Shown: positions 24,869 through 39,773 of the stretch, one piece after another
Position numbering within the stretch: position 1 is the stretch's first letter
Layout of the letters: each line of letters starts with the position of its first letter
Assembly (NCBI GenBank): GCA_009619075.1
Contig: WJOY01000009.1
Coordinates: 1 to 41,917, forward strand
Source: Dehalococcoidia bacterium
GTDB lineage: Bacteria > Chloroflexota > Dehalococcoidia > GIF9 > AB-539-J10
Reading direction: 5' to 3'
Length of the DNA stretch: 41,917 nucleotides
Program-made: the position numbers and the translations under genes
The notes under the pieces: model-generated
Told to the model about the DNA's origin: nothing
Database searches by the model: none
The model's input: the letters and a program-made list of their open reading frames with translations, nothing else

Positions 24869-24871
24869 CTT

Positions 24872-24911
24872 GCGCCTATAGCTCAGCGGACAAGAGCACC
24901 GGTCTTCGGAA
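24872..24911 (+). pseudogene. Truncated tRNA-Arg(TCG) 5' half (attL)
   Basis: GCGCCTATAGCTCAGCGGACAAGAGCACCGGTCTTCGGAA identical to 38476-38515, then diverges. Confidence 0.93.
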
Positions 24912-25330
24912 GATGAGCCAGGCATGATGTCTCATATAGTCTGAGATGGTTACGCTGTCCGCTCCGACCCCCCAGCCTACGATGGGACACAGCTAACCAC
25001 AAAGGCTACCACCGACGGGAAGCGGCACGGGGAGCGTCAAAACGGGGAGGTTCACGATGGCATGGGTAGAGCAGCGGTTTCGTAATTCTAGGTTAAGGGT
25101 ATCAAGAGATGGTTTTAGCTTCAAAACAGTGCTATTCCATTTTTGGTTTCAAAGCTAAAATACCATTGGGTAACAACCCGTTGTTGGCAAATTAACGCCA
25201 AATTTCTAGCTTCAGTTTGAGCGTGAAATACTGCTAAGACTGCTAAGAATAATTGAAACTCCCTTTTTCTAGCCTCCCATAAAATGATTGTCCACGCTCA
25301 AGTCAGCCTTGCTTTAATTTGCATTTAAAA

Positions 25331-25496
25331 TCAGGTTCAGAAATACCTTAAAACGCTTTTTTTACTTTGTGCACGTAAACCGCTTAATTTTAGCCTCGTT
25401 GAATTAGATTTTTGAGTGTAAAAAATGATGGTATTTTTTGAAGCTAATATGGCAGGAATATGCAAAAAACAGTATTTTAATTTGAACCTATAATTG
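25331..25496 (+). repeat. ~165-bp noncoding repeat, copy A
   Basis: 'ccgcttaattttagcctcgttgaattagatttttgagtgtaaaaaatgatg…tttgaagctaatatggcaggaatatg' matches 26386-26560. Confidence 0.9.
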
Positions 25497-25541
25497 CCAG
25501 TTAGAAGCTTGTATCCTCAGATTGTTGTGAAGTAAAATGAG

Positions 25542-26285
25542 ATGATGAATTGGATTGGTATATTAGTAGGTATTATTGGTGTTGCTATAGCGATATACTT
25601 TGGTATAGCTTCAAGGAGAAGACGTGAACTAGTATATTCAGTCAATTCAGTTCGCACAAGAGTGGTTATTTCGGGGCAAACAAAGGACCTTGATGTATTC
25701 TATGATGGCAGTTCATTGGGAGATGTAGATATTACGGCTGTTCAGCTAGCATTTTGGAACGCAGGGAATGAAAGCATCCGAAAACCTAATATTCTTGAGG
25801 AAGTTGTTGTAAAAACTGAACCACCGGTGCGTATACTGGAAGCATCTATAAGAGCTCAATCGCGAAATATTGTAGGATTAAGTCTGCTAGATTCGCCCAA
25901 CTCAAGAAAGATTGGACAAGTGCCCATATCTTGGGATATTTTGGAAAGAAATGATGGCGCTTCTATTCAGTTACTATATCTTGGAGAACCGGAGGTCGAT
26001 GTTTCGGTACAAGGTGTTATTGAAGGGCAACGGGAGATTAAACGTCTAAGTGTAAGTACAGATTTTAAATCACCACAAGACCAAAAGAAATCGTTTAGAA
26101 AGAGTGTTTTGATAGCAACTGTTTGCTTCATAATACTTCTAATTTCAATGGCATTGTTGTTTTTCAGAAAGTTGGATCCTGATTATATAGCTATAGTTTT
26201 TTCTGGTTCAGTTATGATATTCTTAATTTCGACTTTGAATGCAATATCTAAAAAGCGTGAAAAGTATCCTCCATTTGGCTTTTAA
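25542..26285 (+). CDS. Unknown membrane protein (N-terminal TM, C-terminal TM pair)
   Basis: Long ORF between the two repeat copies; hydrophobic N-terminus and two C-terminal hydrophobic segments. Confidence 0.75.
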   Translation: MMNWIGILVGIIGVAIAIYFGIASRRRRELVYSVNSVRTRVVISGQTKDLDVFYDGSSLGDVDITAVQLAFWNAGNESIRKPNILEEVVVKTEPPVRILEASIRAQSRNIVGLSLLDSPNSRKIGQVPISWDILERNDGASIQLLYLGEPEVDVSVQGVIEGQREIKRLSVSTDFKSPQDQKKSFRKSVLIATVCFIILLISMALLFFRKLDPDYIAIVFSGSVMIFLISTLNAISKKREKYPPFGF

Positions 26286-26385
26286 ACCCTCTACCTCACG
26301 TTTTTAAAAGGTGATTTTAAGCACACCCTCCACCACATTAGCTTGAAGTAGCCTAATTTAGCCTCGTTTTGTTTTCCATTGGAAA

Positions 26386-26560
26386 TCAGCCTCAAAAATG
26401 CCTAAAAACACCTTTTTTACTTTATGAGCGTAGACCGCTTAATTTTAGCCTCGTTTAATTAGATTTTTGAGTGTAAAAAATGATGCAATTAATGTAATTA
26501 TTTGAAGCTAATATGGCAGAAATATGGGAAAAACGGTATTTCCATTTAGGAACTTATTGT
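26386..26560 (+). repeat. ~165-bp noncoding repeat, copy B
   Basis: See 25331-25496. Confidence 0.9.
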
Positions 26561-26598
26561 AGAAATGTGGTTAAATTCGCAATAAGAGGAGGTTAAAA

Positions 26599-27222
26599 AT
26601 GGGAAGTAAAGCAATAATAATAGCAGATTTGGCAGCTGGTTTATTGATTGGTATGCAGTTTTTATTAACACAAGAAAAGTATAAAAGTTGGGATGAGAAG
26701 CTATTAAAGAAACTACAGGTAAACATATTTGATAGTGATTCATTCAGAATAAAGACAATGCTAATACCTGGATCTTTAACAGCGGTTATTATGTTGGGGA
26801 TAATTATACAGGGAACGATTGTAGATCTTACCGAAGGTGCTCTTAACGTAGGACATATTTTATTGTCTGCCATCAGTTTGACAGGAGGAATGATAATAGC
26901 GATTGGCATTATATTTCTTGTAGTATGGATAAAAAATAGAGTAAGACGCTTCCGGAAATTTAATCCTATGGTGATGGTGTATTTAGTAGGGATGGTATTA
27001 GGAATAGCCTTTTTGTCTGTCTTAATGGTGGTCGTTGGAAGGGTATCTACTCATATTATAGCCCTTATTGTAGCATTTACAGTTGGCGTAATGCTTATGG
27101 GGGTATGGGCTGGGGGAATGAGGTATATCCAGCAGTATTTAACTTTTACGAATGGGCTGTTGATACGTTTGGGAATACTGATTTTCGTAAGTAGTAAGTT
27201 TTTACAATTGATTTATATGTAA
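26599..27222 (+). CDS. Unknown multi-pass membrane protein
   Basis: Good RBS (agaggaggtt); several hydrophobic helices. Confidence 0.75.
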   Translation: MGSKAIIIADLAAGLLIGMQFLLTQEKYKSWDEKLLKKLQVNIFDSDSFRIKTMLIPGSLTAVIMLGIIIQGTIVDLTEGALNVGHILLSAISLTGGMIIAIGIIFLVVWIKNRVRRFRKFNPMVMVYLVGMVLGIAFLSVLMVVVGRVSTHIIALIVAFTVGVMLMGVWAGGMRYIQQYLTFTNGLLIRLGILIFVSSKFLQLIYM

Positions 27223-27277
27223 AATAATTTTATTATAGAATATAAGATATTTCTTCCCTTGAAGAAGGACGGTCAAA

Positions 27278-28015
27278 ATGATTGACATTAGAATAAAATA
27301 TCAAGCATCCATTTTCGTGGACGCTAATGACATTACTCCTTCTCCAGATATAATAAGCCCGCTTATCGACATTTTTCGAGATAAAACCTTCATCCCCAAT
27401 ACGTTTCAAGAGATAGGTCCTGCATCTCCAGTCCCAAAGGTAAGGCTTAGGCTATCCACAACGAATAACGAATGGAATATTGCTTTCGCTACACATAGGA
27501 TTAATATCGATAAAAATCCAATTGAACCGAGAGGAAGCAACCTAGGCGAATTATCTGATTTCTGTTCAGAGGCTATGGATTTCTTCGGAAGAATACTAAA
27601 TAAGTTCAATAAAAGAGCAAACCGCCTTACTCTAAATACTAACGGACTATTTGAAGAAATGACCGAAACCCAGCTTTCTACTATATACACAAAGTTGTTC
27701 AAAACAACTAAGTTCTACAGCGAAAACCCTCCGTTTGAATGGGATTGGAGGTCTGTTTCAGAAATACCTATCAAAATCTTAGAACTGACGGATAGCCTTT
27801 ACGTTATAACCATATTAAAACGTGTAAGGGGCGAAATTGGTGGCCAAAGTGGTGTATCCAAGTTGGATCGCATCCAATGTTCCCCAGATATCAACACCTC
27901 TAGTCAAAATACTAATTATCGATTTGGACTACCCCACATCAAAAACTATTTTCCGCAGGCTCTTGAAATTCATAACATGCTAATTGAACAGATGGAGGAA
28001 TATATTAATGCCTAG
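27278..28015 (+). CDS. Unknown protein, first gene of three-gene operon
   Basis: 245-aa ORF; overlaps next gene start at 28008. Confidence 0.78.
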   Translation: MIDIRIKYQASIFVDANDITPSPDIISPLIDIFRDKTFIPNTFQEIGPASPVPKVRLRLSTTNNEWNIAFATHRINIDKNPIEPRGSNLGELSDFCSEAMDFFGRILNKFNKRANRLTLNTNGLFEEMTETQLSTIYTKLFKTTKFYSENPPFEWDWRSVSEIPIKILELTDSLYVITILKRVRGEIGGQSGVSKLDRIQCSPDINTSSQNTNYRFGLPHIKNYFPQALEIHNMLIEQMEEYINA

Positions 28016-28640
28016 TTTCATTTTAGAAATAGACAGTGGCACAAGTCATGATTTAGCTGAGCAAAGATTATTAAACCTCCTGATTGAGACTGATTATCCT
28101 GATTCAGCTCAATCTACACTGCCCTTACTTCTGAATATTCTTCAGAGTAAAGCAGCTCATATATCAGTAGTTGACGAGAATTATATTAATCAAAGTCGCT
28201 TACTGAAACTAAAAAGACAGTTTACTCCTAAAATACTCAATTTGATATTGGAGTCAGTCTTTGAATACGGCATCGATTCACAAGCAGATGTATTCATTCG
28301 TAGTCAGATGAAGGAAAACTCTCTGGTAACCAAAAATTGGCTCAATGAAATTTTTGTCGAACATTTTTCAAACCCTGTTATTCTTATTGGCATCCTTCGT
28401 ATTATATCTCGACTTTTCTATTACGCGGTTTACCCAGAAGGTCAGCTTATGGCAACTACAGCTCTTTCACACTCTAACGTTGAAGTTCAAGAATGCGGAG
28501 TCCGTGCTTTCGAAAGTTGGGGAACCTTAGATAGTCTTCGTATCCTTAATAACATTAAAGTAGTTACGCCTTGGCTTCAAGATTATGTTAACGAGGTAGT
28601 TAAAGACTTAAGTAGAGGGCATAATGTCCCTGTTGGTTAG
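28008..28640 (+). CDS. Unknown, possibly helical-repeat (HEAT-like) protein, second gene of operon
   Basis: ATG 28008 overlaps upstream stop; helical text ending SHSNVEVQECGVRAFESWGTLDSLRIL resembles a HEAT unit. Confidence 0.72.
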   Translation: MPSFILEIDSGTSHDLAEQRLLNLLIETDYPDSAQSTLPLLLNILQSKAAHISVVDENYINQSRLLKLKRQFTPKILNLILESVFEYGIDSQADVFIRSQMKENSLVTKNWLNEIFVEHFSNPVILIGILRIISRLFYYAVYPEGQLMATTALSHSNVEVQECGVRAFESWGTLDSLRILNNIKVVTPWLQDYVNEVVKDLSRGHNVPVG

Positions 28641-29145
28641 AAAAATCGACAAAAGCAAGTGGCTACAGAACAACATTATTGCTGATGAAGATGTTTCCGC
28701 AGATGCTATCACTATTTGCCTAAGAACGTCTGAAAATACACTCAGCGTCTGGAAGGTCTCGACTGAAAACGATATTGAAGAAGCTATTCTTGCCATGGTA
28801 TCTGGTGGTGACCACCTTGAGTCTATAGATATAATAACAATTGATTGTCAACACATAGCATCTGATAGGATAAATTGTGTCCAAAGTTTAGAACAATCGC
28901 TTACTCGTGTTCGAGACCTTAAAAACGCACATTACGATATAATTGACTTATCTTACCGTAAGCTGGGAGTTATTTCACAGTATATTGTTGACTGTTTTAA
29001 AAAGGGGCAAATAACCAACCGCTGTGAAGAAGGTAAAGTCGTCAGATACACTGAAGGCTATCTCAAGGGAATTATTCAAAAAGCCATAAACAAAGGGCGA
29101 TTGAAGAAAGAAGATCTTCCTGATTCTATCCAAAATAAACTTTAA
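28624..29145 (+). CDS. Unknown protein, third gene of operon
   Basis: Overlaps 28640 stop; 173 aa, no recognisable family. Confidence 0.75.
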   Translation: MSLLVRKIDKSKWLQNNIIADEDVSADAITICLRTSENTLSVWKVSTENDIEEAILAMVSGGDHLESIDIITIDCQHIASDRINCVQSLEQSLTRVRDLKNAHYDIIDLSYRKLGVISQYIVDCFKKGQITNRCEEGKVVRYTEGYLKGIIQKAINKGRLKKEDLPDSIQNKL

Positions 29146-29321
29146 TAATTTCTCTCCTATTCTCTACCATTGCCATTATTCTAAAAACACCTTATGGCTT
29201 TCCCGACGTCCTGTTAGTAGGGTAGGACGTTGCTTTGGCAGTCGGTGAAGATACTGGCAGGACGTTAAGGAAGTTAATCAAGTAGCCGCCAGTTCCCAGG
29301 TATATATATAACCAAAGAGAG

Positions 29322-29345
29322 GAGAGTGGCCGTGGAGCCACTCTC
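29322..29345. terminator. Hairpin GAGAGTGGC-CGTGGA-GCCACTCTC
   Basis: Perfect 9-bp stem followed by TTCGTTT; lies just 3' of the capsid remnant on the minus strand. Confidence 0.65.
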
Positions 29346-29369
29346 TTCGTTTACCTTGCCATGCCCCCA

Positions 29370-29594
29370 CTATGCGTGTTCGGTTAGCAGCACCAGAGGT
29401 TTGTTCGCTATACGCATCACGTTACCTGTTACACGTTTATGAATCTTAAAGCCGACTAATCCAGCCGCACTATAGAGCTCGGTTAGTCGCTGGATGGGCA
29501 TGCCACTCCGGTCGACGACCCTGTAGCCGCTGCGGAAGTCGCCAAATATAGCGATCACCGCGCCTGCTCCTGAAGCGAGAATCCCAGTAATCAT
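29370..29594 (-). pseudogene. HK97-type major capsid protein, C-terminal fragment
   Basis: AVIAIFGDFRSGYRVVDRSGMPIQRLTELYSAAGLVGFKIHKRVTGNVMRIANKPLVLL is typical of the capsid C-terminus. Confidence 0.8.
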
Positions 29595-29644
29595 ACCGAT
29601 GGGACTAACTTACAAAGTGATATAATATACGGGGGCAGGCCATA

Positions 29645-30127
29645 ATGAGAATGGTAAAAACCAAAAGGAAAAGAAAGCCGTATAGCGAAAGAAATGACCT
29701 TGAAAGAATTAGATCCAATTGGAGAAAAATAGAAGGGCTATATCACAAGGGAGAATGGTCAAGTGTCGTAATAAGATCAGCTACAGCTACTGAAATTGCA
29801 ATAAATCTTGTGATAAGAGAGGAGCTTGCAAATAAACGGAAGCTTGAGAAAGACTTTGTCGAAAGCCTTTTAATTTGGGCGAATGGTATTCAAGGTAAAG
29901 TAAACCGGCTGATACGTCCTCTTCTAACAAACCCAGAAGACACTAGAGTATTTAGAGATTTGAGTTCTATGATTAATGATATAAACAATGAACGTAATTC
30001 AGTTGCGCATAGTGGACAATTTAAAAGGAAAACAACTGCAATAAAAATCGTCAACTCATCTAAGGAAGTCATAGAAACATTGGTAGGACGATATAAAGGG
30101 AACTTTGAACTTAAGGATATTTTATAA
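29645..30127 (+). CDS. HEPN-like domain protein
   Basis: Helical 160-aa protein with RNSVAH (Rx4H). Confidence 0.6.
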   Translation: MRMVKTKRKRKPYSERNDLERIRSNWRKIEGLYHKGEWSSVVIRSATATEIAINLVIREELANKRKLEKDFVESLLIWANGIQGKVNRLIRPLLTNPEDTRVFRDLSSMINDINNERNSVAHSGQFKRKTTAIKIVNSSKEVIETLVGRYKGNFELKDIL

Positions 30128-30315
30128 TACCGGATAAAAATGAATCACACAAAACATAGGAATTGGAAGGTTTCTATGGAGTAGCTAGAGCTTAGAGCAG
30201 ATATGAATACGGAAGGAAAACAGATAATAGATAAGTCTTAGTTCAAATAATCAAAGTTAGAATATGTGAAATAAGCAGCATTAAGCATCTAGTAAGTTTT
30301 TCAGCTGGGGGGAGT

Positions 30316-31272
30316 GTGAGAAAGAAAGCTATTCCAAATCTATTCGACCCATCAAAGGACGTGAGTTATAGGTTAGATCTACTTATTCAGCTCCTATATG
30401 ATTTCGATTGCCACGAAAGATTCTACGTAATCCGTGACCTTACGGGAGAATGTGGCATTTCGGCAGAATACAAAGACCGGATCACCGACTTTCTTAAAAT
30501 TCCTACAAGTAATGTTGAATTTTGGAGTATTGACTATTCTATAGACTGGCTTTATGCAGCCCTGTTCCTTTCTCAAACAGAACCCACCGGTTCTATTTAT
30601 GATAACGTTGGAAATATCATTAGAGGCAACAATGAGGATGTAGACATTCTACTGGCGCTCCGGGCTGAGGACAAAATCCATTTGGTTATGATAGAAGTAA
30701 AAATCGAGATACCTTTTAGTGAATCACAGCTTACCTCAAAGGTTAGAAGGCTCGAGATGCTCTTCGGTACAGACGGTAAAAGGTTTCCCCATATTTACCC
30801 TCATTGGCTACTTGCTTCTCCATACAGGAGCCGAAGGATTAGCACGAAGGATTGGCCCAGCTGGATGACAAACGCAGATGATGAATATTTGTGGTATGAG
30901 ATAAAGAAGAATTTCCATAGCATGAAGATAACAAGGTGTGACAGCAAGGGAACTCCATGCAAACATGGTGCCTATTGGATTCTTGAAGGACGAAAAGGTG
31001 TAAAACTAAGTGTGAATCTTACTCTGCAGGAACGCCAAGCTATCTTGAGGAATATTTATATATCTGACCAAGTAAAACTCCCTCTTGAGTCTCTTGGTTC
31101 AGAGCAGTCGACAGTTGACATTTATTACTCGATCCCTGACTTCGTTTCAATTCTCCATGCGGTCTCACAAGAAGCAGAACGAACTAATGATACTAGCCGT
31201 GCTGAATTTCTTAGTGAACTGCATGACAGGTTGTCAACACTTTTATATGACGAAGGAGCAATACTCCCATAG
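30316..31272 (+). CDS. PD-(D/E)XK nuclease-like protein
   Basis: NEDVDILLALRAEDKIHLVMIEVKIE (D…ExK); GTG start. Confidence 0.65.
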   Translation: MRKKAIPNLFDPSKDVSYRLDLLIQLLYDFDCHERFYVIRDLTGECGISAEYKDRITDFLKIPTSNVEFWSIDYSIDWLYAALFLSQTEPTGSIYDNVGNIIRGNNEDVDILLALRAEDKIHLVMIEVKIEIPFSESQLTSKVRRLEMLFGTDGKRFPHIYPHWLLASPYRSRRISTKDWPSWMTNADDEYLWYEIKKNFHSMKITRCDSKGTPCKHGAYWILEGRKGVKLSVNLTLQERQAILRNIYISDQVKLPLESLGSEQSTVDIYYSIPDFVSILHAVSQEAERTNDTSRAEFLSELHDRLSTLLYDEGAILP

Positions 31273-31354
31273 GAAAGTTATTTGAGGTATAATCCGGCCC
31301 ACGAACACAAGTGTAGAATAGTATTGGCGATACTCTTTGGTTAAGGAGCGAAAT

Positions 31355-32332
31355 ATGAATAATTGGTTCGCAGTGCATTCATTAGAAGCCTTCCAGCAAA
31401 ATCCTAGGATGCTTGGATTCGTAGCCAAGACTAAGCTTGATGGGTCCGTTCTCAAAGACCAGAACGACAAGCCTATGCCGGCTATGGACAAGGTCTTGGA
31501 GGTAAAGCCGAGGGATCACATTGTCTACTACTGTAGGGGTGACTATGTAATTAAAGGCATCTATGAGGTTGTGAGGGCTTGTTTCGCTGAAGAAACAAAG
31601 TGGCCGGATTCGCCTTTCCAATTTAAAATAAAACCAATAATTGAGTTAGATGAACCCTTTGACTTTCGCGTTTTGTTGTCCTCACTTGACATGTTTAGAG
31701 ATTTAGAGGATATACGGAAATGGGGAATGCCTCTTCGTGGTACGTATAACGCCCTTAAACGTCTCACCGACCACGACTATGCAACGATTGAAAAAGCCAT
31801 AGTTCAAGCTAGAGACCAGGGCACAGTGAGAGAGGATTACGAGATTGAAGGAAAACTTAGAAACTATAGGCAACACCTTCAGATTCAGTACAAGATAGCG
31901 GAGTGGGGCATAGAAAACGGATATCGAGTGCATATTGCAATTAATGACAAGGGCAAGATAAAAGAGAAGCTTAACAAAATACTCTCGGATATCCCTAGGT
32001 TTCACTCAGACAAGATTTTGGAAATTGCGGAAAGGATTGATGTGCTCTTTTTTGATAAGGAACGAGATATCTTGACGCATGCTTTTGAGGTTGAGCATAC
32101 TCCAACTATGTATTCCGGCCTTCTGCGATTGAATGATATTGCCGAAACCTGCCATAGAGGAACCACAAAATTCTATATCATCTCTGATAAGGGCAATAGA
32201 GACAAGTTCAATCACGAACTCGAAAGACCCTCATTTCAATTGTTGAGAGTGGATAAGTGTGAGTTTGTAAGCTACGAGGAATTGGGGGAAGCGTGGAAGC
32301 AATTACAGAACAAATCTGTGCCGTTGTTCTGA
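31355..32332 (+). CDS. EVE (PUA-like) domain fused to nuclease-like C-terminal domain
   Basis: MNNWFAVHSLEAFQQNPRMLGF…KPRDHIVYYCRGDYVIKGIYEV; C-terminal IDVLFFDKERDILTHAFEVEHTPTMYSGLLRLNDI. Confidence 0.7.
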   Translation: MNNWFAVHSLEAFQQNPRMLGFVAKTKLDGSVLKDQNDKPMPAMDKVLEVKPRDHIVYYCRGDYVIKGIYEVVRACFAEETKWPDSPFQFKIKPIIELDEPFDFRVLLSSLDMFRDLEDIRKWGMPLRGTYNALKRLTDHDYATIEKAIVQARDQGTVREDYEIEGKLRNYRQHLQIQYKIAEWGIENGYRVHIAINDKGKIKEKLNKILSDIPRFHSDKILEIAERIDVLFFDKERDILTHAFEVEHTPTMYSGLLRLNDIAETCHRGTTKFYIISDKGNRDKFNHELERPSFQLLRVDKCEFVSYEELGEAWKQLQNKSVPLF

Positions 32333-32403
32333 GCAGCAGTATTCCACTGACAAGGTGACTAACGCTGTTTCTCAGCCGGTAACTGGTAGGTTCTTGGGTG
32401 ACA

Positions 32404-33120
32404 ATGAACATAATTGGCATTGACTGCGCAACTAAGCAGGCCAAAATTGGTCTGGCTTTCGCTTTGTATCAAGATGGCAAGGCTATTGTGCGAGATGTGA
32501 AAATTGGCAGTGAAACCACAACGGTGTTGGTAACTATCAAGGACTGGTTAGCCTCGGGGAAATTGACACTTCTTGCCTTGGACGCGCCACTTGGCTGGCC
32601 CACCGATTTGGGGGTGAACTTACATTTACATAAAGCAGGAGAATGCATAAATGTAGACCCCGATATAATGTTCTCACGCTATACCGACCGGAAATTATGG
32701 CCAAGGTTATCCAGGAAGCCGCTCGAAGTCGGCGCAAATCTAATAGCCAGGACTGCTCACGCAGCATTGCGATTACTGGGACAGTTACGAGAGGAAACCA
32801 AGTTAACGATTCCTCTAGCGTGGGATCCTAATGTCACTGAGACGTGTGCTATTGAGGTATATCCTAGAGCTACTCTTGAGATGATTGGTATCAAGTACGA
32901 GCAACGGTTGTCTGCGATACGTGAGATTGACGCCCTGGTTATTGAATCGGGAGAGGACAATCTGACGAGTGAGCATAGTTTAGATGCAGTAATATGTGTA
33001 CTCGCCGCAGTAGATTTTATAACTGGTAAGTGCCCAGCGCCAAATATGAGTGAGAAGGTTCTTGCGGATAAAGAGGGCTGGATTTGGGTGCGGGGAAGCC
33101 GTGGAAAGATGAAAAATTAG
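32404..33120 (+). CDS. DUF429-family (RNase H-fold) protein
   Basis: IIGIDCATKQAKIGLA; LLALDAPLGWP; EVYPRATLEMIG; SEHSLDAVICVLAA. Confidence 0.82.
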   Translation: MNIIGIDCATKQAKIGLAFALYQDGKAIVRDVKIGSETTTVLVTIKDWLASGKLTLLALDAPLGWPTDLGVNLHLHKAGECINVDPDIMFSRYTDRKLWPRLSRKPLEVGANLIARTAHAALRLLGQLREETKLTIPLAWDPNVTETCAIEVYPRATLEMIGIKYEQRLSAIREIDALVIESGEDNLTSEHSLDAVICVLAAVDFITGKCPAPNMSEKVLADKEGWIWVRGSRGKMKN

Positions 33121-33132
33121 AAGGGATGATGC

Positions 33133-33357
33133 GTGACTGTTGACCTTAATCAACTGCGCTCTGAAAGAAGAGAACTCTTTGATCGATGCGTGAAGGCGAG
33201 TTCCTTCAATGAGCTATTAGAAATTGAGGTAGCAATTGCAAACTCGATTCGCCACGCACAAGCTACTCCCAGGTTTACTCAGAGCGAGAGTAACAATCGC
33301 TCATTTTGTTACCTCATTGCACTTTCTAGCGTTTTGCTACTCTCGCTGACACCATGA
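33133..33357 (+). CDS. Hypothetical small protein
   Basis: GTG-start ORF just after DUF429 with gaaggga RBS-like sequence. Confidence 0.4.
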   Translation: MTVDLNQLRSERRELFDRCVKASSFNELLEIEVAIANSIRHAQATPRFTQSESNNRSFCYLIALSSVLLLSLTP

Positions 33358-33447
33358 ACCTAAGTCAGGGTGCCATACTATGCGTTTAACATGGATTATA
33401 CGCTAGGCCTTTCAGCAAGGTCGGCCTTGTCTTATATTTGTCCATAT

Positions 33448-33493
33448 TTGTCGCGTATTGTTTAATATTGTATAATTTAGTACTATATGGTAC
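33448..33493 (+). promoter_or_regulatory. Promoter TTGTCG-17bp-TATAAT and palindrome GTACTATATGGTAC upstream of Xre gene
   Basis: -35 33448-33453, -10 33471-33476, dyad 33480-33493, ATG at 33497. Confidence 0.6.
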
Positions 33494-33496
33494 ATT

Positions 33497-33712
33497 ATGG
33501 ACAAGATGGCAACACTTAAGGAATTGCGACTAAACAAGCTATTGAGTCAAGCTAAGTTAGCCAGACTATCTGGCGTTAGTAGAACCACAATAGTAGCGAT
33601 CGAGAACAATCAACATACGCCACAACCTCTGACAATACATAAGCTGGCTAAAGCACTTGGCGTAGACCCAACAGATATAGATGATCATGATAGAACTAAG
33701 CGATCTTCTTAA
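33497..33712 (+). CDS. Xre-family HTH regulator (controller-like)
   Basis: LRLNKLLSQAKLARLSGVSRTTIVAIENNQHTPQPLTIHKLAKALGVDP; overlaps the methylase start. Confidence 0.9.
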   Translation: MDKMATLKELRLNKLLSQAKLARLSGVSRTTIVAIENNQHTPQPLTIHKLAKALGVDPTDIDDHDRTKRSS

Positions 33713-36700
33713 TAAACTAGATTACGATACGTCTTTACATTACAAGCGGGCAGATGGACCGACTGACGTTGAAACAGCACATCTATTCCGTGCCGCTCGT
33801 GATGCAGGGGTTAGCGGCATTTACGTGTTTGAAGCAAGCCCAATCGACACGTATAAATTACTGAGCCCGAGACCCGTTGTTTACGTGGCTCGAGCAAATA
33901 CTGAAGAAGAAGCAAGGCAAATTCACCGCAGTCTGTGGAATCTCGGATATGCTCCGTTCTTACTCATTTTACTACCGCACCAAGTTAGGATTTATACGGG
34001 CTTTGATTATTCAGAAGAATCGGAAGAACAAGGTCTATTGGATGTAGCCAATAATCTGGAGCAACTTGTTGATCTATTGTCTGATTTTAAGGCTCACTCG
34101 ATTGATACCGGATTCATCTGGGAATCTAAATACTATAGAGAAATAGATCAAGATCAGCGAGTAGATAGACGCCTACTTAGCAACCTGGAGCAATTGGGCA
34201 AAGCCTTGGAAGATTCTGGTCTTTCTGACGAACTAGCTCACGCCTTAATCGGTAAATATGTTTACTTGAGCTACCTGAAAAGTAGGGGAATCTTAACAGA
34301 CGAGTGGATTAGAAAACAGCAAATAATGCCCCAAGGCGTATTTTCGCATAATGCAAACGTGGTCAGTTTGCAAAAGCTAGTAGTAGCTTTAGAAGAACGC
34401 TTCAATGGCAGGATCTTTCCTATAGATTTTCAAAAGGAAAAGACTCTTGAGGATAAACATGTTTCTTGGGTAGCCTCGGTATTTAGTGGATCTGAAATCA
34501 TAGAAGATGTTCCGGAATCAGTTTACCAGTTATGTTTTCCATTCCGAGCTTATGATTTCAGCTACATTCCTGTTGAGACCCTTTCAGCTATCTATGAGCA
34601 GTTCATCCGTGATAGGAAAGAGAAGGGAGCAATTTACACACCAGAAGTCTTGGCTGACTACGTACTTTCAGAGATGGAGTGGGCCAAGCCTCTTGAACGA
34701 GGTATGAAAGTGCTCGATCCTGCGTGTGGCTCGGGCGTGTTTCTAGTGCTAGCTTATCGACGTCTTATTGAAAAAGAGATATACCATTTGGGCTTAACCG
34801 AAAAGCTCAAACTTGAAACGCTGCGTGATATTTTGCTAAAAAGCATCTACGGAATCGAGCGGGAACGTGATGCTTGTTATGTAGCTGAATTCAGCTTGAT
34901 CTTGACCTTGCTCCATTATACAGAGCCACGCGATTTGAATAGTCTAAAGTTTAAATTCCCTGAATTACACAATAAGCAAATATTCGAATGTGATTTCTTC
35001 GATATCGAAGGTGAAAAAGATGGAGCCAGGTTTTGGCAACGGGGGCTTAAGTTTGATTGGATTACCGGTAATCCTCCGTGGATTGAACTAAAGCCGGATA
35101 CAGAGGGAGTGGAATGTGTCAGGGCTTGGATTGAAAACCCCAATAATGAGAAGGAGCATCCTGTTGGTGGTAACCGAGTGGCTGAAGCATTTAGCTGGCT
35201 CGTCACTGACTTACTAAACCAAGATGGACTCATCGGACTCGTACTACCAGCTACAAGTCTTTTCAACCGGGAATCTGGAAAATTTAGACAATCTTTCTTT
35301 ACGAAGCACGAAGTTCTGCGAGTTACAAATTTCGCAAACCTTAGAGACATTCTCTTCGGGAGAGAGAAAAGTGGCGTATTACCCGCTATGACCATGGTTT
35401 ATCGCCCATCGGTAGATTCACATCACAAACCACACATCATACATTATGGGCCATTTTCCGTTAATCAGATTACTACGAGGAGAGATAAACCGTGGGTTAT
35501 TACAATCAACGAAAGCGAAATAAAGTCGATACCACCTTATGAAGCCGAACAAGGAGAAATGTTAACCTGGAAATTGGCATTGTGGGGAACATATCGTGAT
35601 AAACGAGCTATAGAGCGCATAAGGCACCTTTCCCCAAATACTCTTGAGGATTTCTGTAAACAGAATGGATGGGGCGAAAGATTGCCAAGGGAGGGTGCAC
35701 AGCTTCGCACTGAACGCGAAAACCCACGATGGTTCAAAGCCAATATAAAGGGACAAAAGAAGTTTGATACAAAAACCTACGATGCGATAAAACCACGCTA
35801 TCGTTTCTCAATTCCAGATGGCAGTGTTCTTCAAGAAATTATAGATGACGTTTATATACGGACGGGTAAAGATACACTATATTTAACTACACCAGCACCT
35901 CATGTTATCTTGTCCGCTAGTTGGCAAAACTTTGCTATATACAGCGATTATGATTTTGTTACTCCTCCGCGACAGATGGTCATCTCAGCCCCAAGATCGC
36001 CTAAAGAGAATGAAGACTACCTGCGAGCACTGACGATCTATCTCAGCTCAAGTCTAGTTGCATATTATCTATTCTTCCAAGTCCCTCAGTGGGGAATTTT
36101 TAGCCAGCGAGGAAGTGTGATAACAAAGGCGGTTCGAAAAATACCCACACCGCTTTTTACCACGAAACAAGCAAAAGAGTTCGCAGATTTCCATAGAGCG
36201 TTAGTTGAGAGAGAACGCTGTGACAAAACTCGCTTTGTCTCAGACTCGTTACAGAGACGAAAGATCTTTGGCCAATTTAATACTGTTGAAGGAAGCTCTT
36301 CGTTATCAAAGGCTCTTAAGACCCTAACGAGCAAGGAAAAACAGGAAATCGATCGTTTTGTTTGGGAAAAGGATGAGGAGTTACAGAGAGACATCGATAA
36401 TAAGGTATACGACCTTCTAGAGATCCCTGAAGACATTAAGCTCTTAGCAAGTGAGTTTGTGCAAACTCGTTTACTTCTAGACAAGCCCTCAGTGAGAGAA
36501 AGAATAACCAGAAAGCCTACCAAAGAAGTATTATTGGCCTATGCTAGACAACTCCAAAAGGAGCTTGATAGTTTTACCACGGGCACAGCCTATCATCGAG
36601 TAAATATTACTCATTCTAATGATTTGATTCAATGTGTAGTTGAAATCACTAAAGAAAACGCTCCTATTGTGGTAAATGAGGATAGCATTAAGAGCGGAGA

Positions 36701-36905
36701 ATTGACTACTGCCAGACTGTTAGAAAAACTTAGTCAGAGTCTGCGAGAGCGAGTTAGCCAATGGGTTTATGTACAGCGCGGATTGCGTCTTTATGACGGC
36801 CCTAAAGTCTATATTTATAAAGCACCGCGTTTAGTTGATTGGACACGAACCCAAGCAATGGACGATGCTGCGGACATCATCGGACAGGCAATAGTAAGCA
36901 CATGA
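33681..36905 (+). CDS. Eco57I-type N6-adenine DNA methyltransferase
   Basis: VLDPACGSGVFLVLAYRRL (SAM motif) and WITGNPPWIEL (NPPW catalytic motif). Confidence 0.92.
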   Translation: MIMIELSDLLNKLDYDTSLHYKRADGPTDVETAHLFRAARDAGVSGIYVFEASPIDTYKLLSPRPVVYVARANTEEEARQIHRSLWNLGYAPFLLILLPHQVRIYTGFDYSEESEEQGLLDVANNLEQLVDLLSDFKAHSIDTGFIWESKYYREIDQDQRVDRRLLSNLEQLGKALEDSGLSDELAHALIGKYVYLSYLKSRGILTDEWIRKQQIMPQGVFSHNANVVSLQKLVVALEERFNGRIFPIDFQKEKTLEDKHVSWVASVFSGSEIIEDVPESVYQLCFPFRAYDFSYIPVETLSAIYEQFIRDRKEKGAIYTPEVLADYVLSEMEWAKPLERGMKVLDPACGSGVFLVLAYRRLIEKEIYHLGLTEKLKLETLRDILLKSIYGIERERDACYVAEFSLILTLLHYTEPRDLNSLKFKFPELHNKQIFECDFFDIEGEKDGARFWQRGLKFDWITGNPPWIELKPDTEGVECVRAWIENPNNEKEHPVGGNRVAEAFSWLVTDLLNQDGLIGLVLPATSLFNRESGKFRQSFFTKHEVLRVTNFANLRDILFGREKSGVLPAMTMVYRPSVDSHHKPHIIHYGPFSVNQITTRRDKPWVITINESEIKSIPPYEAEQGEMLTWKLALWGTYRDKRAIERIRHLSPNTLEDFCKQNGWGERLPREGAQLRTERENPRWFKANIKGQKKFDTKTYDAIKPRYRFSIPDGSVLQEIIDDVYIRTGKDTLYLTTPAPHVILSASWQNFAIYSDYDFVTPPRQMVISAPRSPKENEDYLRALTIYLSSSLVAYYLFFQVPQWGIFSQRGSVITKAVRKIPTPLFTTKQAKEFADFHRALVERERCDKTRFVSDSLQRRKIFGQFNTVEGSSSLSKALKTLTSKEKQEIDRFVWEKDEELQRDIDNKVYDLLEIPEDIKLLASEFVQTRLLLDKPSVRERITRKPTKEVLLAYARQLQKELDSFTTGTAYHRVNITHSNDLIQCVVEITKENAPIVVNEDSIKSGELTTARLLEKLSQSLRERVSQWVYVQRGLRLYDGPKVYIYKAPRLVDWTRTQAMDDAADIIGQAIVST

Positions 36906-37564
36906 ACGCTGACTATACAATTACAATCAAGCCTAGCGAAATATATTTCGGAGTTTACCGCAGTCTATTTAGACAGCAAGTGCATCAGTTGATTGCTTGG
37001 GGACATCGCAGTGCTCGTCATAGTATACAATCGAATAACGAAGAGGAGCCAAATATTACCGGTTATATTACTGAAGCCATTAGGGCACGTCTCGTGACGA
37101 ACAGCCCCCCATGGTGTGTGTATTACTTTGTTCATGAAGACACGCCGATAGCGGCAAGTGGTCGTTCAGGAAGGTCTAGACCTAGACCTGATATTATTAT
37201 TGAAACAAACTTAGGAGGGCGTCCTGAGTACGTTTTTGAAGCAAAGCGGTTAAGAATAAATGGGTTCGAAGCAAGCAAATATATCGATTCAGATGGTATG
37301 GGATGCTTCGTGAGTGGCCTATATGCTTCGAGATATGATGAAGCAGCTATGCTCGGTTACATCCAGAGCGACTCATTGATTCACTGGAAAGATCAAGTAA
37401 AGAAGACTATTGATGAGAATGCGGAACAATTGTGTTTAGAATCTCCGCAGTATGATAAAACAGTAATAGACGTTTTCCCCCTTGAATGGGTCAGTGAACA
37501 TAAACGAGTTAAAGCAGGACATTCCATTGCTATCTATCATATTCTCTTAGACTGCTGTGCCTAG
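36902..37564 (+). CDS. Restriction endonuclease-like protein
   Basis: RPRPDIIIETNLGGRPEYVFEAKRLRI (D…ExK); ATGA overlap with the methylase. Confidence 0.75.
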   Translation: MNADYTITIKPSEIYFGVYRSLFRQQVHQLIAWGHRSARHSIQSNNEEEPNITGYITEAIRARLVTNSPPWCVYYFVHEDTPIAASGRSGRSRPRPDIIIETNLGGRPEYVFEAKRLRINGFEASKYIDSDGMGCFVSGLYASRYDEAAMLGYIQSDSLIHWKDQVKKTIDENAEQLCLESPQYDKTVIDVFPLEWVSEHKRVKAGHSIAIYHILLDCCA

Positions 37565-37607
37565 TAAGCCTATGGATGGGGTATATTGATTAGGAGCGAG
37601 GTAATAG

Positions 37608-37712
37608 ATGAAAACCCTTGCCCAGGTCATTCCTACTTCGGAGCAATTAGCCATTATCTCACACCCCCGTGCGGGTGTTCAGCTGATAAGGGGAGCGGCT
37701 GGCATTGGTTAA
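37608..37712 (+). pseudogene. Decapitated helicase: N-terminal Walker A region only
   Basis: MKTLAQVIPTSEQLAIISHPRAGVQLIRGAAGIG*; resembles the start of UvrD-type helicases up to GAAGSGKT. Confidence 0.6.
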
Positions 37713-37729
37713 TAACCCCGCAAGAGGTT

Positions 37730-37990
37730 TTACCCTCTCACTATATATAGGGCATTGAGTATTGTTGTTGGCGAGGTGAAGCTCAGGTCTGCCAGTCCTA
37801 AGCAATATAGCCGCTTGTCTATCGTGACGGCACCGGCGGCAGCGGTCGTTACTGTGGCTGCTGCCAGGGTGGCATCTTTGGTGAATCCCTCTGGCTGCTG
37901 ATTGTCGTGTCCGGTACCAGCGATGAACGCCAGCTCCTCGGCCTCGGCGACTGCTCTGGCGAAGCTATCAACCAAGAGGTCAGCCAGATT
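37730..37990 (-). pseudogene. HK97-type major capsid protein, internal fragment
   Basis: LADLLVDSFARAVAEAEELAFIAGTGHDNQQPEGFTKDATLAAATVTTAAAGAVTID; real similarity probably ends near 37825. Confidence 0.78.
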
Positions 37991-38446
37991 CTGTATAAGG
38001 GCAGAGGCAGAGTCGAGTTTAAGGAACCAAAGACAGAATATAGCAGGCGTAGGGTCGGCATGACGCCAAAGCTGGCACTATTCTTCAGAGAATATAAGGC
38101 TGAGAGGGAATCGCTTCACTGGCAGCTAGGGGTGCCGCTCACTCTTGATGACCTCGTCTTCGCCAATTACGATGGGAAGCCGATAGACCCTAGCACCTTG
38201 ACCCATAATTTTGGTAGAATAGTAAAGCGTGCAGGGTTGAGCGCCCGCTTCCACGATTTGAGGCATAGCTATGCATCTCTGATGTTGGCGTCTGGCGTTC
38301 ATCCTAAAATAGTCTCCGAAGCGCTGGGACATAGTACGGTGGCCATCACCCTGGACATATATAGCCACGTCACCCCAGGGCTTCAAGAGGCGGCTGCGAA
38401 GCAGCTTGACTCCCTGCTGCCAGTTGGAGTGGCTCGAGCGGCATGA
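37990..38446 (+). pseudogene. Tyrosine integrase, C-terminal catalytic fragment
   Basis: QILYKGRGRVEFKEPKTEYSRRRV…RFHDLRHSYASLMLASGVHPKIVSEALGHSTVAITLDIYSHV; N-terminal part missing. Confidence 0.88.
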
Positions 38447-38475
38447 AAGCGTCACGGGGAGGTTTAGCTATGCGT

Positions 38476-38549
38476 GCGCCTATAGCTCAGCGGACAAGAG
38501 CACCGGTCTTCGGAACCGGGGGTCGTGGGTTCAAATCCCTCTAGGCGCG
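38476..38549 (+). tRNA. tRNA-Arg(TCG)
   Basis: GCGCCTA/TAGGCGC acceptor; CCGGT-CTTCGGA-ACCGG anticodon arm; T-loop TTCAAAT. Confidence 0.95.
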
Positions 38550-38565
38550 CTACTGAGTCACCCTC

Positions 38566-38608
38566 TTTTGCTAACATTTTGCTAACATTTTGCTAACATT
38601 TTGCTAAC
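38566..38608. repeat. Tandem 11-bp repeat TTTTGCTAACA x ~4
   Basis: Units at 38566, 38577, 38588, 38599; last unit overlaps the integrase stop codon. Confidence 0.92.
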
Positions 38609-39773
38609 GAACTTCCGTTTGAGCTGTTTCCGGCTCAAGCAGCGTATCAAAACGCAAAGCCGCTGCTTCCTGGAGTCCTGGCACCACATGGCTATAGGTA
38701 TCGAGTGTTATGCCTATATTTGCATGCCCCAGCCTTTCAGAGACTATCTTGGGATGCACGCCAGCCTTAAGCATTAGAGTAGCGTGAGTATGCCTGAGGT
38801 CGTGAAAGCGAATATGCGGCAGCCCAGCCTTCCGAATGAGCCTGCCAAAACCATGGCTAACTGTGCTCGGGTCCAGAGGGCTGCCATCAGGATGGGCAAA
38901 CACCAAATCGCTACCAGCCAACCTTTCCCCAAGCAGAGCTTTCTGTGCTTCCCGCTCAGCGTGATGCCCACGCAGTAACTTTGCTAGAGACGGTGATAGC
39001 GACACCAAACGCCGACTATGAGGACTCTTAGGCTCTTTTATCACGAATTCCCCACTGCTTAGCCTATATAGAGTTTGAACTACAGAAATTGAAGCCCGCC
39101 CCAGGTCTATATCACACCACCTTAGCCCCAAAAGCTCACCACGCCGCATCCCGGTATAGAGAGCTGCGTAAAATAAAACGTAGTAGGGTGTCCTTCGGGC
39201 AGCATCAAGAAACCTGGGAACATTCTCAGAGGCCAGCGTGGACATCTCGATCCGACCAGGCCGCGGTGGAACGACAGCTTCAGCCACATTCCGAACTACC
39301 ACCCCCTGCTTCACAGCATGGCTTAACGCCTCTGACAGAACACGATGTTGGTGTAACACGGTCCGACCAGAAAGACCCCCCTTCCCATCAAGCCGGCCAT
39401 GTGATAGGGCACCTGAATAGTAATTTTCAAGATGCTGCGGTTGAAGCTGGCAAAGTGGTATTCCACCCAGAGCAGGAACAATGTAGCGGTGCACAATAGC
39501 CCGATACCCTTCAGTCGTCCGAGGTGAGGTGTGTATTGCAGCATAGCTCTCAACCCACTGCTTTAGATATTCACCCAGGCTTACCTTTTGAGGCTTGACA
39601 TAGGCACCTCTCTCCAGGGAATGTAGGGTTTCCCTGAGTTCCCGCTGCGCATCCCCCTTTGTCCCTTTGACCGTCTGCCATTGTTGGCGACGTTTGCCCG
39701 TCTGAGGATCTCTCCCTACATCAATAATGATGCTCCAGGAACCTTTACTCCGTTGCTTAATATGTCCTCTCAT
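38604..39773 (-). CDS. Tyrosine-type site-specific integrase, intact
   Basis: RGHIKQRSKGSWSIIIDVGRDPQTGKRRQ; TGMRRGELLGLRW; RFHDLRHTHATLML; LGHANIGITLDTYSHV. Confidence 0.95.
   Translation of the reverse strand: MRGHIKQRSKGSWSIIIDVGRDPQTGKRRQQWQTVKGTKGDAQRELRETLHSLERGAYVKPQKVSLGEYLKQWVESYAAIHTSPRTTEGYRAIVHRYIVPALGGIPLCQLQPQHLENYYSGALSHGRLDGKGGLSGRTVLHQHRVLSEALSHAVKQGVVVRNVAEAVVPPRPGRIEMSTLASENVPRFLDAARRTPYYVLFYAALYTGMRRGELLGLRWCDIDLGRASISVVQTLYRLSSGEFVIKEPKSPHSRRLVSLSPSLAKLLRGHHAEREAQKALLGERLAGSDLVFAHPDGSPLDPSTVSHGFGRLIRKAGLPHIRFHDLRHTHATLMLKAGVHPKIVSERLGHANIGITLDTYSHVVPGLQEAAALRFDTLLEPETAQTEVR

Follow-up and report, generated by a model that had tools for sequence, protein, structure and literature searches.

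Does the gene at positions 31355–32332 of the forward strand of contig WJOY01000009.1, assembled from a Dehalococcoidia bacterium, encode a restriction enzyme acting on modified DNA, and which modified base would such an enzyme read? The whole stretch of 41,917 nt analysed here is referred to as the window. Phages modify their DNA to evade ordinary restriction, and readers of such modifications are scarce as tools.

The open reading frame is intact and encodes a protein of 325 amino acids, P0001, from an ATG at 31355 to a stop codon at 32330–32332. The ribosome-binding site AAGGAG, read directly from the sequence, precedes the start codon at 31343–31348 on the same strand. The protein comprises an EVE domain of the PUA superfamily (residues 1–152, 31355–31810), a short linker (31811–31849, a 14-residue offset between the domain matches), and a PD-(D/E)XK-type nuclease domain (residues 166–320, 31850–32314). 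Evidence for the presence of both EVE and nuclease parts in P0001 is far above chance. A preliminary description of this locus, made from the sequence, had proposed a modified-base-binding EVE domain at the N-terminus, an acidic nuclease core in the C-terminal half and, from their combination, a candidate modification-dependent restriction enzyme. If active, the EVE–nuclease family would offer new modification-specific nucleases with which to map DNA modifications.

The N-terminal EVE domain

Pfam EVE (PF01878) matched residues 49–147 of P0001 with an E-value of 1.3e-3 and 19.1 bits, below the cut-off of 23, so the single sequence by itself leaves doubt. In an alignment of 56 sequences including P0001 (A2), 41 rows matched Pfam EVE at E ≤ 0.01, and the profile built from all 56 rows recovered two solved structures of the EVE/UPF0310 kind, 1wmm and 2p5d, both at E 6e-14. 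The AlphaFold model of P0001 (pLDDT 85.5) was aligned with 1wmm in the fold search with a Z-score of 18.1 and an rmsd of 1.5 Å over 126 residues. Both the profile and the model thus bear out the proposed EVE domain. An insert at about residues 28–46, within 31355–31810, is poorly modelled and is missing in the other rows of the alignment.

Other folds resembling the P0001 model were the EVE domain of VcaM4I (Z 12.6), the classic EVE protein 2eve (Z 11.2), and YTH domains (Z 11–13). The YTH m6A readers, including Mmi1 (Z 12.8) and YTHDC2 with m6A DNA (Z 12.5), are the next structural neighbours after 1wmm, level with the VcaM4I EVE domain and slightly above 2eve; weak profile matches to YTH proteins were also found (E 0.14–0.29), and a YTH domain of archaeal McrB is cited in PMC7641849 as reading m6A. 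These likenesses would suit an enzyme of the same architecture in which an EVE/YTH-like pocket reads N6-methyladenine and which restricts DNA with foreign adenine methylation. We consider this specificity unlikely, since 1wmm, an EVE protein, is by far the best match (Z 18.1); the methylases of the host, considered below, also bear on it.

Aromatic residues are conserved in the P0001 EVE domain at F22, Y59, W/F83, and W123, as judged from the alignment columns. Position 83 is aromatic in 52 of 55 rows (W in 27 and F in 25), and position 123 is W in 53 of 56. These conserved columns suggest W83 (31601–31603) as a candidate base-stacking residue and W123 (31721–31723) as a candidate pocket or wedge residue. 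In VcaM4I, the EVE domain flips 5mC and 5hmC, and its pocket is formed by P24, W82, and Y130, with Q128 as the wedge (PMC7897488).

The C-terminal nuclease domain

The PADLOC profile REase_II (PDLC03534) matched P0001 at E 6.4e-10 and was found in all 56 rows of the alignment. The C-terminal domain was modelled separately from 62 sequences (alignment A3) with a pLDDT of 91.3. Foldseek placed EcoT38I first (probability 0.98) and BstEII next (0.90), with an E-value of 0.013, while the modification-dependent enzyme MspJI appeared at rank 4 as a weak match (E 0.09). The best VIA-align Z-scores were 8.7 for the BspD6I small subunit, 8.2 for N.BspD6I, 7.8 for FokI, and 7.4 for EcoT38I. PD-(D/E)XK restriction enzymes therefore head both fold searches, and one superfamily dominates the lists. 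Neither search scored highly (best Z 8.7 and Foldseek E 0.013), and we count this against the preferred explanation. Searching PDB sequences with the nuclease profile yielded nothing meaningful; the fold is therefore assigned from the model, which identifies the C-terminal domain of P0001 as a PD-(D/E)XK-type nuclease.

Seven residues, namely D229, E245, E247, Q178, R258, R291, and P292, are invariant in both the 56-row and the 62-row alignments. D229 (32039–32041) is a predicted metal-binding acid, and E245-V-E247 (32087–32095) is a predicted E-x-E catalytic pair. Q178 (31886–31888) lies on the first nuclease helix and R258 (32126–32128) on the helix following the E-x-E strand. The stretch quoted in the preliminary description, IDVLFFDKERDILTHAFEVEHTPTMYSGLLR, corresponds letter for letter to residues 228–258 of P0001 and contains the invariant acidic site, so that its acidic nuclease core is recovered within a PD-(D/E)XK-like fold. 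The structure prediction called for there was carried out, and the model combines this fold and its invariant acids with the EVE fold. The D...E-x-E pattern was present in 128 of the 130 rows of a wider nuclease alignment, across all N-terminal types; of the two rows without it, one is a fragment. The canonical lysine position of PD-(D/E)XK enzymes is occupied by E247 in P0001, which also counts against the preferred explanation. Replacement of E-x-K by E-x-E occurs in BamHI. R258 is a possible stand-in for the usual lysine. A text search found no paper containing the FEVEHST motif.

EVE domains are able to bind RNA too, and this is a further point against a DNA restriction enzyme. The EVE domain could bind modified RNA and the nuclease could cut nucleic acid and arrest the cell, making P0001 an RNA-directed or toxin-like nuclease; EVE domains are known from translation and toxin–antitoxin contexts (PMC7641849). 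We regard this as very improbable, given that DNA restriction enzymes lead the fold matches of the nuclease domain and that no antitoxin-like partner recurs beside the relatives of P0001.

Distribution and genomic context of the relatives

Of 400 genomes searched in the phylum, 23 had matches, mostly to the C-terminal half of P0001. With P0001 as a single-protein query, no relatives were found in GTDB contigs and none in the phage collection; an alignment query was required. An alignment of ten relatives (A1) was used as the query on GTDB genomes and yielded at least 587 candidate stretches, of which at least 555 were confirmed, and it also matched three viral contigs. EVE–nuclease relatives are very common, with at least 555 candidate loci, and among the GTDB matches listed their hosts included many bacterial phyla as well as archaea. 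Among the open reading frames with a domain match at the loci listed, 73 combined EVE and nuclease domains and 10 had the nuclease with another or cut N-terminus. Possibly decayed copies were seen in two genomes of the phylum: the frame was broken into two open reading frames in one (L021), and the nuclease lacked the EVE part in another (L024).

Methylase motif IV was found in only 9 of 428 open reading frames neighbouring the relatives. A Pfam scan of 130 neighbours detected no DNA methylase among the families common to at least two of them, and housekeeping genes were scattered. PADLOC found occasional defence genes next to the relatives, for example, Gabija and MADS. The lack of a recurrent methylase neighbour is consistent with a stand-alone gene that has no methylase dedicated to it and, together with the EVE and nuclease folds, supports the proposed modification-dependent restriction enzyme.

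The same data bear on another possibility, a type II-like, sequence-specific restriction enzyme whose EVE domain merely aids DNA binding. The PADLOC profile of the nuclease is named REase_II, and some plasmid relatives that share the C-terminal domain but have another N-terminus are annotated as "type II restriction endonuclease". These plasmid names appear to rest on the C-terminal domain only, no listed gene near the four plasmid loci is a methylase, and the methylase neighbour that a type II enzyme would require does not recur among the relatives. A type II-like activity therefore appears quite unlikely.

Comparison with known systems

MspJI likewise couples a reader of modified bases to a PD-(D/E)XK nuclease. 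Its reader is of the SRA type, whereas that of P0001 is an EVE domain, and the C-terminal domains show only a weak likeness (E 0.09).

The preliminary description had suggested EVE-HNH and McrBC-type proteins for comparison. The EVE-HNH enzyme VcaM4I (6yex; PMC7897488) has an N-terminal EVE sensor, a C-terminal nuclease, a similar length, and no NTPase, as does P0001. The resemblance extends to the EVE fold (Z 12.6) but not to the nuclease, which is HNH in VcaM4I and PD-(D/E)XK-type in P0001; no HNH Pfam match was found in P0001, and 5mC/5hmC reading has been shown for VcaM4I only. P0001 is therefore not of the EVE-HNH kind. EVE domains act as specificity modules in McrB (PMC7641849), so the reader is again common to both, while P0001 has neither a GTPase nor an McrC partner. 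Family scans, including Pfam and PADLOC, gave no ATPase or GTPase match in P0001. Of the comparison suggested, the EVE reader thus stood, and the HNH nuclease and the GTPase did not.

Bell, Wolf and Koonin (2020; PMC7641849) predicted a class of type IV restriction endonucleases built as EVE-PD(D/E)XK fusions. By architecture, P0001 belongs to this class, and its general design was already known; the core architecture, the defence context, and the predicted mechanism are common to both. P0001 differs in its divergent EVE domain, the insert, and the shortest linker seen, the comparison being with the class as a whole, as the paper gives it. In the literature searched, which did not cover the modification-dependent enzyme screen of Lutz et al. 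(2019), no characterised member of the EVE–nuclease family was found. The closest EVE sequences to that of P0001 are those of EVE proteins from its own bacterial class that stand alone (L127–L139), with no nuclease domain attached.

Predicted mode of action and target base

We consider it quite probable that P0001 is a solitary, single-chain, NTP-independent, modification-dependent (type IV) restriction endonuclease, its modification dependence being suggested by the EVE domain. Its probable role is in bacterial defence, against phages whose DNA is modified. Like the EVE domain of VcaM4I, that of P0001 would flip the base that carries the modification and hold it in an aromatic pocket, setting the nuclease on DNA close by. 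Two nuclease domains, paired as a dimer and supplied with Mg2+ or Mn2+, could then cleave incoming DNA of phages or plasmids that carries the modification. A partner methyltransferase would not be needed because host DNA would be free of the modification, or free of it in the relevant context.

The methylases of the host give an indication of the target. A type IIG enzyme encoded 1.3 kb from P0001 belongs to N6-adenine-methylase families, and a further N6/N4 methylase is encoded elsewhere in the genome. Host DNA therefore probably carries m6A, which argues against the m6A-reading alternative, as does the finding of no C5 methylase in the source genome, which is 68% complete. The adjacent type IIG enzyme and this negative result for C5 methylases mildly favour a cytosine-type target over m6A. 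Depletion of C5 methylases was not seen in the phylum: they were present in 12 of 19 genomes chosen for carrying the family, compared with 97 of 251 background genomes, and the difference (Fisher p 0.051) was in the direction of enrichment in family carriers; this, too, we count against the preferred explanation. The EVE–nuclease family thus does not avoid 5mC hosts, and indiscriminate cutting at 5mC is unlikely. The target of P0001 is likely a rarer phage modification or one subject to a context requirement.

Other N-terminal domains and the origin of the fusion

The nuclease domain was also found with other N-termini. Four plasmid loci (L002–L005), from Rhodococcus, Komagataeibacter, Enterococcus, and Sphingomonas, encode the same C-terminal nuclease with a different N-terminus, which by eye resembles a helix-hairpin-helix (GLGPAVANLLYFLHP...); no Pfam match was obtained for L003. 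Copper or heavy-metal genes were located nearby in all four. In divergent nuclease relatives (L022, L027, L029, L140, L141, and L144), the N-terminus looks like a HARE-type winged helix, and Pfam HARE-HTH matched L029 at E 0.006 and gave no match for L022. One nuclease clade (L012, L013, L015–L017, L028, L123–L125, and L146; support 100/99) includes several members that share an unrecognised N-terminal domain (MANSIKKAFLQELTARFGS...).

The EVE domain of P0001 is nearer to the standalone EVE proteins of its own class (up to 40% identity over about 100 residues) than to those of the other fusions. In the EVE tree, P0001 is set apart from the other fusions by a branch with support of 98/97. In the AU test, a single clade of EVE fusions was not rejected (p 0.058), and the nuclease tree, with its long branches, gives no decision on the placement of P0001. 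The linker of P0001 is the shortest seen, with an offset of 14 residues compared to about 42–48 in most relatives; short-linker fusions are present in other Chloroflexota (L030, L034, L113, L114, and L118). A separate fusion event is suggested for P0001 by these sequence comparisons.

As a tentative and rather doubtful extension, the E-x-E nuclease may represent a large modular restriction family with swapped readers, namely EVE, HARE-type winged helix, helix-hairpin-helix-like, and uncharacterised N-termini, each aimed at a different modification or lesion, with P0001 as a second, independent capture of an EVE domain. Reader swapping on one nuclease scaffold would be a natural experiment on the control of a nuclease by its reader.

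An island integrated in a tRNA-Arg gene

The P0001 gene lies between two exact copies of a 41-bp direct repeat (24871–24911 and 38475–38515), identical to the 5' half of tRNA-Arg(TCG). The left copy, on the forward strand, marks the left end of an island and adjoins a tRNA-His gene ending at 24869; the right copy, on the same strand, is within the intact tRNA-Arg gene (38476–38550). A tyrosine recombinase gene at the right end (37907–38446, forward strand; Pfam Phage_integrase, E 7e-18) is listed with 179 amino acids and is possibly partial. Relatives, one of them from the same genus, have tRNA-His directly beside an intact tRNA-Arg, without interruption. The repeats and this uninterrupted site indicate a 13.6-kb insert in tRNA-Arg (24871–38515).

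According to Pfam and PADLOC, the island contains, along with the EVE–nuclease, a type IIG gene with an Xre regulator, a HEPN-like gene, and a DUF429/PDC-S44 gene. At 33497–36905 on the forward strand, the gene of the Xre-type regulator overlaps that of the type IIG restriction-methylation enzyme (PADLOC E 3e-59). Since the type IIG enzyme is self-contained and has its own regulator, it was not taken as a partner of P0001. The tRNA-Arg-integrated defence island is a likely vehicle for the spread of the P0001 gene.

The open reading frame upstream of P0001 (30316–31272, forward strand) contains a DILLAL...MIEVK stretch resembling another PD-(D/E)XK nuclease, with no Pfam match; within the class, stop codons occur in several of its relatives. 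It was considered as a partner of P0001 and rejected: among the genomes of the class listed, those with its relatives and those with the EVE–nuclease have only the source genome in common, so no linkage is indicated.

Imperfect duplicated blocks of 136 and 61 nt, 82–83% identical and spaced by about 1.06 kb, are located around open reading frames at 25300–26547. Directly after tRNA-Arg, at 38566–38608, there are tandem copies of TTTTGCTAACA. These adjoin a second tyrosine recombinase gene (38604–39773, reverse strand), possibly belonging to another element at the same tRNA.
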